The notes under the pieces were generated by a model. The model saw only the letters and a list, made by a program, of their open reading frames with translations, was not told where the DNA came from and made no database searches. From Candidatus Gemmiger stercoravium (GTDB lineage Bacteria > Bacillota > Clostridia > Oscillospirales > Ruminococcaceae), in the NCBI GenBank assembly GCA_019119835.1, contig DWWE01000110.1, positions 1 to 64,000 on the forward strand: DNA of 64,000 bases, given 5' to 3'. Positions 8,791 to 9,747 of this stretch are shown piece by piece. The position numbers and the translations under genes are program-made. Position 1 is the stretch's first letter; the number at the start of each line of letters is the position of its first letter.

Positions 8791-9399
8791 TCAGGCGGCG
8801 AAGATCCGCCGCAGCGCCCGATTGCGCTCGATCAGTTTGACCAGCGCCACGCCCAGCACGCAGCAGCTGATGACCTCACCCACACCGACGGTCAGCATGT
8901 TGAACAGCGTAACCGGCAGGGTGGCCGGCGTGTCGGAGAAAAAGACGCTGATCTCCCACCCTACGATCAGGGCGTTGAAGAGCACCGGCGGCAGGGCGGC
9001 GGGCAGCGCCAGCCCTGCCGGGCGCAGACCGCGCAGCCGGTAGGTGACCAGGCAGGCCAGCAGGGTGGCCAGGGTGCCGAACACCACGTCGATGACGGTA
9101 GAGCCCAGCGCGTTGGCCAGTAGACAGCCCAGCGTCACCCCGGCGATGTATTCCGGGCCGAAGACCGGCAGCAGGCAGAGCGCTTCGGCCAGCCGCACCT
9201 GGACGGCCCCGTAGGAGAAGGGCTGCAGCGCCAGACAAAGCACCACATACACGGCGGCGATCATGCCGCAGCGCACCAGGCGATTGGTGCGCCGGGCCCC
9301 GGCCTGGGACGGGCCGTCGGCCTGGGGGCGCAGCGCCAGCCGGGCGCCGAGAAAGGCTGCCGCAAGGACAGCCGCGAAGACAACGATCCATTTCAACAT
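8791..9399 (-). CDS. queT: QueT-family queuosine-precursor transporter
   Basis: AVYVVLCLALQPFSYGAVQVRLAEALCLLPVFGPEYIAGVTLGCLLANALGS; preceded by a preQ1-III-like element. Confidence 0.88.
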   Translation of the reverse strand: MLKWIVVFAAVLAAAFLGARLALRPQADGPSQAGARRTNRLVRCGMIAAVYVVLCLALQPFSYGAVQVRLAEALCLLPVFGPEYIAGVTLGCLLANALGSTVIDVVFGTLATLLACLVTYRLRGLRPAGLALPAALPPVLFNALIVGWEISVFFSDTPATLPVTLFNMLTVGVGEVISCCVLGVALVKLIERNRALRRIFAA

Positions 9400-9405
9400 A
9401 GTACA

Positions 9406-9512
9406 CTCCGGCGGATAGATTTTGACCGCACACGGGACCGCCAGCCCCGGCCGGTTTGTCGCCGCCCGGCGGTTGGACCGGGCGGCGGAGCCTAAAATCC
9501 TAAGTTGCTCAA
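9406..9512 (-). ncRNA. preQ1-III riboswitch
   Basis: Reverse strand: gagcaacttaggattttaggctccgccgcccggtccaaccgccgggcggcgacaaaccggccggggctggcggtcccgtgtgcggtcaaaatctatccgccggag; close match to the remembered Faecalibacterium preQ1-III sequence; sits just before queT and ends at its RBS. Confidence 0.9.
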
Positions 9513-9521
9513 CAAGGCATG

Positions 9522-9550
9522 ATTATAGCAAAAAAATCCGGCGATGACAA
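9522..9550 (-). promoter_or_regulatory. Sigma-A-like promoter for riboswitch-queT
   Basis: Reverse strand TTGTCA-17 nt-TATAAT. Confidence 0.8.
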
Positions 9551-9585: not shown

Positions 9586-9613
9586 AAAAAGCCGGACCCC
9601 GCAGGGTCCGGCA
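9586..9613 (-). terminator. Terminator downstream of degV-family gene
   Basis: Reverse strand gccggaccctgcggggtccggcttttt. Confidence 0.85.
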
Positions 9614-9747
9614 CAGATTGTCGAAAAAGTATAAAATCCGTCGCCGTCGGCGGACAATCTCCGGCCTAAGAGCCGGGCCTGCGGCCCGGTTGGCCTGCGA
9701 AACGCGCCGGCGGAAACAGGGCCCGGCAGCCGACAGGGAAAGGGCGG

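Follow-up and report, generated by a model that had tools for sequence, protein, structure and literature searches.

A probable preQ1-III riboswitch in the leader of queT from Candidatus Gemmiger stercoravium

The segment 9510–9406 on the minus strand of the 64,000-nucleotide stretch of Candidatus Gemmiger stercoravium DNA analysed here (the window) is in all likelihood a class III preQ1 (preQ1-III) riboswitch that, by analogy with characterized relatives, would repress translation of queT; we place the probability of this reading at about 0.93. It draws on a family match, a conserved core, a conserved and covarying P5 helix, the arrangement of the genes, a promoter-like site and the lack of room for a terminator ahead of the start codon. 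An Rfam 15 scan of the whole window matched the segment to the preQ1-III model (RF02680) with 94.3 bits (E 1.2e-17), 31 bits above the curated gathering score of 63, and the match covers the model over its full length (positions 1-102 of 102). This was the sole riboswitch that the scan recovered from the window, and a search of the genome found the same segment as its single preQ1-III copy. A preQ1-III riboswitch upstream of queT had been proposed from an unannotated reading of the raw sequence, together with a covariance-model search as a possible refutation; that search gave the above match, and the reading is thereby confirmed by computation, with a PF06177 gene downstream. Upon re-reading 9397–9550, all sequence elements quoted in the original prediction were found at their minus-strand positions. 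PreQ1-III was described in the same bacterial family as the relatives recovered here, and the locus itself is an ordinary further member of this known class, whose described lineage and gene context it shares.

The product of the downstream gene (Table 1) matches PF06177 with 150.7 bits (cut-off 33.7) over residues 41-191, and the riboswitch ends 6 nt ahead of this gene. QueT is established as the S component of a queuosine-precursor ECF transporter (PMC11130926). Upstream of queT, on the same strand, lies degV (PF02645), and queT is followed by a HAD-family hydrolase gene and a gene for an EamA transporter. In the window and in several Gemmiger homologues QueT is extended at its N-terminus by a hydrophobic stretch of some 35-40 residues, giving a total length of 200-209 aa versus 167-180 aa elsewhere.

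The genome, which is 93% complete, encodes one QueT, TGT, QueA and QueH, the set expected alongside a preQ1 importer, so that feedback on the transporter makes sense. Two matches to QueC were detected in the genome, both weak or partial and neither convincing. The better one (26 bits, partial) falls on a gene pair that we take to be LarE/LarB-like, and was set aside as a QueC candidate. The presence of TGT, QueA and QueH without a convincing QueC fits salvage of preQ1 with feedback on its importer.

Table 1. Coordinates of the queT leader elements and flanking features in the window
Feature	Position	Strand	Remarks
queT, ECF-type queuosine-precursor transporter S component, 202 aa	8791..9399	minus	PF06177; ATG at 9399-9397
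preQ1-III riboswitch	9406..9510	minus	RF02680, full length
Shine-Dalgarno (SD) GGAG	9406..9409	minus	6 nt before AUG, a spacing among the common ones in relatives
P5 3' strand CCGCCGG	9408..9414	minus	overlaps first two SD bases
P2 pseudoknot 3' strand AAAAUC	9418..9423	minus	invariant in 77 aptamers, but fixed by search pattern
P4 stem-loop	9425..9455	minus	anti-SD in loop
Anti-SD CUGGCGG (P5 5' strand)	9438..9444	minus	paired in 99.4% of cells; 2 of 7 pairs show compensatory changes
P3 hairpin, 11 bp	9460..9487	minus	sequence variable over the family
P1 hairpin GAGC/GCUC (9510-9507 with 9491-9488)	9488..9510	minus	loop holds pocket bases A6, C7, U8, U16, U17, A18 and P2 5' strand
P2 pseudoknot 5' strand GAUUUU	9494..9499	minus	invariant in 77 aptamers, but fixed by search pattern
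Sigma-70-like promoter TTGTCA-17-TATAAT	9522..9550	minus	-35 at 9550-9545, -10 at 9527-9522; 11/12 consensus matches; extended -10 (TGC before -10)
Intrinsic terminator of degV	9591..9612	minus	9-bp stem, then TTTTTGTTGC

The pocket bases A6, C7, U8, U16, U17 and A18 (numbered as in the review PMC11625349) and the adenines of J4-2 are all present in the window. P5, formed between the P4 loop and the 3' tail, comprises 7 bp with a duplex energy of -11.8 kcal/mol, in agreement with the predicted pairing of ccgcc with ggcgg, and takes in no more than the first two bases of the GGAG. The proposal that GGAG, beside the pairing segment, is an occludable ribosome-binding site also stands, with the occluding helix conserved through compensatory changes as described below. 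The stem GCCGCCCGGUCCAACCGCCGGGCGGC, which had been called P1/P3, corresponds to P3, and the P1 part of that label fails, P1 being the GAGC/GCUC helix. This stem had further seemed to differ from a known example; such a difference is normal variation of P3, of which 73 distinct sequences occur among 77 aptamers.

Scanning the genome contigs with a two-part core pattern gave 78 loci, with relatives in Gemmiger, Faecalibacterium, Fournierella, Anaerofilum, Subdoligranulum and other Oscillospiraceae and Clostridia; the same pattern search of viral contigs found no phage copies. Two of the pattern matches, labelled 'Bacillota' (L045) and 'Saprospiraceae' (L083), are without P1, P4 and P5 features and were rejected as chance matches. 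Family-level covariance matches were obtained in 34 of 299 genomes, and these, together with the pattern loci, furnished an alignment set of 77 distinct aptamers, every one of which has a queT frame downstream as judged by tblastn. In this set pairing of P1 reaches 100%, 8 sequences carrying a compensatory change from A-U to G-C, and P5 displays double changes from G-C to A-U in 9 sequences and from G-C to C-G in 2. For the structure as a whole 96% of cells are paired, a value that drops to 56% or less when the partners are slid by one to three columns. The strands of P2 are complementary but invariant, having been fixed by the search pattern, so that covariation is silent on this helix. Likewise, none of the 77 aptamers departs from C7, U8, U16, U17, A18 or the J4-2 adenines, and the full set of pocket bases including A6 is near-invariant, a conservation which the search pattern in part required.

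Beyond this set, four divergent preQ1-III-like leaders, each preceding a queT gene, scored 30-46 bits, below the Rfam cut-off (L140 201-304, L141 201-339, L138 1139-1230 and L139 202-348). Two of them bear hairpin-like insertions of 22 and 40 nt in the P1 loop, replacing 10 or 7 model positions, and in L138 and L141 the complementarity between anti-SD and SD is retained by eye with changed sequence.

In the mechanism that we favor, the transcript would begin a few nucleotides before GAGC, and the RNA would form P3, P4 and an HLout pseudoknot made of P1 and P2. Occupation of the pocket by preQ1 would then lead P4 to dock onto the 3' tail via P5 (CUGGCGG with CCGCCGG), covering the first two bases of GGAG, and less of the QueT importer would be made when preQ1 is plentiful. 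According to the review PMC11625349, preQ1 stimulates the P4 loop to dock onto the SD tail, whereby the first two SD bases are occluded. As the geometry in the window is the same, the probable mechanism here is likewise that preQ1 represses translation of queT; by this analogy, the switch very probably turns down production of the precursor transporter when the precursor is plentiful. Binding and a structure (4RZD) have been reported for preQ1-III, and the Subdoligranulum variabile (Sva) RNA gave 2.6-fold repression of a reporter with an EC50 of 22.5 nM, whereas neither in-line probing nor SHAPE revealed modulation of P5 in the Faecalibacterium RNA (PMC11625349). The evidence for the last regulatory step thus comes from smFRET, modelling and a single modest reporter result. 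The 77-sequence set offers independent comparative support for the P5 helix. Binding of preQ1, docking and repression in the window would follow the pattern of the Faecalibacterium and Subdoligranulum work, and a class III leader from the window's clade would lend itself to docking tests in a native context.

An aptamer of this kind could instead act on transcription through premature termination, as do some preQ1-I riboswitches such as that of B. subtilis (PMC11625349). Against this, only 6 nt separate the 3' end of the aptamer (9406) from the AUG (9399), a terminator scan found no terminator-like site on either strand from the aptamer to early queT, and the conserved, co-varying helix involves the SD; control by transcription is thus very unlikely here. 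As no terminator would fit between the aptamer and the AUG, control of translation through docking of P5, in the way modelled for the Faecalibacterium RNA, is the best reading.

The ligand might also be another queuosine precursor, preQ0 or queuine, these close precursors differing from each other by small groups, or the fold might be a non-functional relic. However, the pocket bases of the Faecalibacterium prausnitzii (Fpr) structure are present and, within the limits set by the search pattern, nearly invariant among the relatives, the gene set with QueH and QueA but no convincing QueC suggests that preQ1 is the base being salvaged, and the high covariance score comes with no sign of decay. 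We accordingly give both of these options little credence. A more radical doubt arises from the secondary-structure energy of the aptamer, which is unremarkable against shuffled sequences (z -1.14) and by itself would leave room for chance similarity in a GC-rich leader. Such an energy is expected of a pseudoknotted RNA, and the e-value, the exact gene context and the phylogenetic conservation make chance similarity vanishingly improbable; indeed, the covariance match refutes it. The preQ1-responsive translational switch therefore stays the preferred reading.

The promoter TTGTCA-17-TATAAT, predicted to lie just upstream, is borne out by 11 of 12 consensus bases and an extended -10 with TG ahead of it; promoter-like sites in shuffled sequences numbered 0.0 +/- 0.2, so that the window's site is not expected by chance. 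Its -10 lies 11 nt before the aptamer, a placement shared by most loci of the window's group, and the degV terminator (Table 1) separates degV from the queT transcript. Two types of leader can be distinguished, with the -10 at 8–12 nt from the aptamer in 33 loci, the window's included, and a longer gap in 44. In 42 of the latter 44, a 5'-terminal hairpin with a stem of 5 bp or more separates the -10 from the aptamer. These hairpins, of 5-8 bp and varying sequence, sit where the transcript is predicted to begin (L004-L105; for example, L014, L021, L013 and L002), and for 39 of the 43 segments tested, folding was better than in 95% of the shuffled versions (p <= 0.05). They occur outside the Gemmiger-type loci, the window's group being without them, and are not mentioned in the available part of the review PMC11625349. 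As the aptamer of the window's group starts a few nucleotides after the predicted transcription start (about 9516–9514 in the window), where 42 of the 44 longer leaders put a hairpin, P1 itself could conceivably act as the 5'-end structure, and preQ1 would then also alter the accessibility and stability of the mRNA 5' end. We consider this unlikely, but, if true, it would add control of decay to the translational switch.

A further arrangement was encountered in about 18 loci elsewhere, nearly all from Gemmiger or Faecalibacterium, in which the -35 hexamer (TTGCAA, TTGCCA or similar) makes up the loop in a terminator-like hairpin of 9-12 bp and the T tract of the latter forms the 17-nt promoter spacer (shuffle p about 0.03 or less each). 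The terminator of the upstream gene thus appears superimposed on the queT promoter in these loci (L003, L034, L042, L057, L059, L064, L066, L075, L077, L079, L092, L097, L103 and others), with stems that differ in sequence by locus and retain their pairing. The arrangement is absent from the window. The degV-queT intergenic region of the window includes, at 9613-9690 on the minus strand, a dispersed repeat of modular structure, consisting of a shared 3' module (TGTCCGCCGACGGCGACGGATTTTATACTTTTTCGACARTCTG) and one of two alternative 5' modules. The repeat has 41 matches in the window's genome. It is present in 8 of 13 genomes of the genus, the window's included, and contains a second, weaker promoter-like site (9657-9628).

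Among the known preQ1 riboswitches, preQ1-I (RF00522) shares the ligand, and its covariance model has no match in the window's genome. PreQ1-II (HLout, from Lactobacillus and Streptococcus) is described in PMC11625349 as binding in the same gamma mode, ten of the pocket bases being identical, and it also can regulate queT; however, it has a different fold and buries the whole SD, whereas the window is matched by the class III model. Relative to the preQ1-III riboswitches of Faecalibacterium prausnitzii (PDB 4RZD) and Subdoligranulum variabile, P3 of the window differs in sequence and length, and the window, with its -10 so close to the aptamer, is without the 5' hairpin of the Faecalibacterium loci. 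The window shares with these two (PMC11625349) P1, the predicted P2 pseudoknot, P3, P4 and the pocket bases, and also the reach of P5 over the first two SD bases, the downstream queT and the bacterial family.
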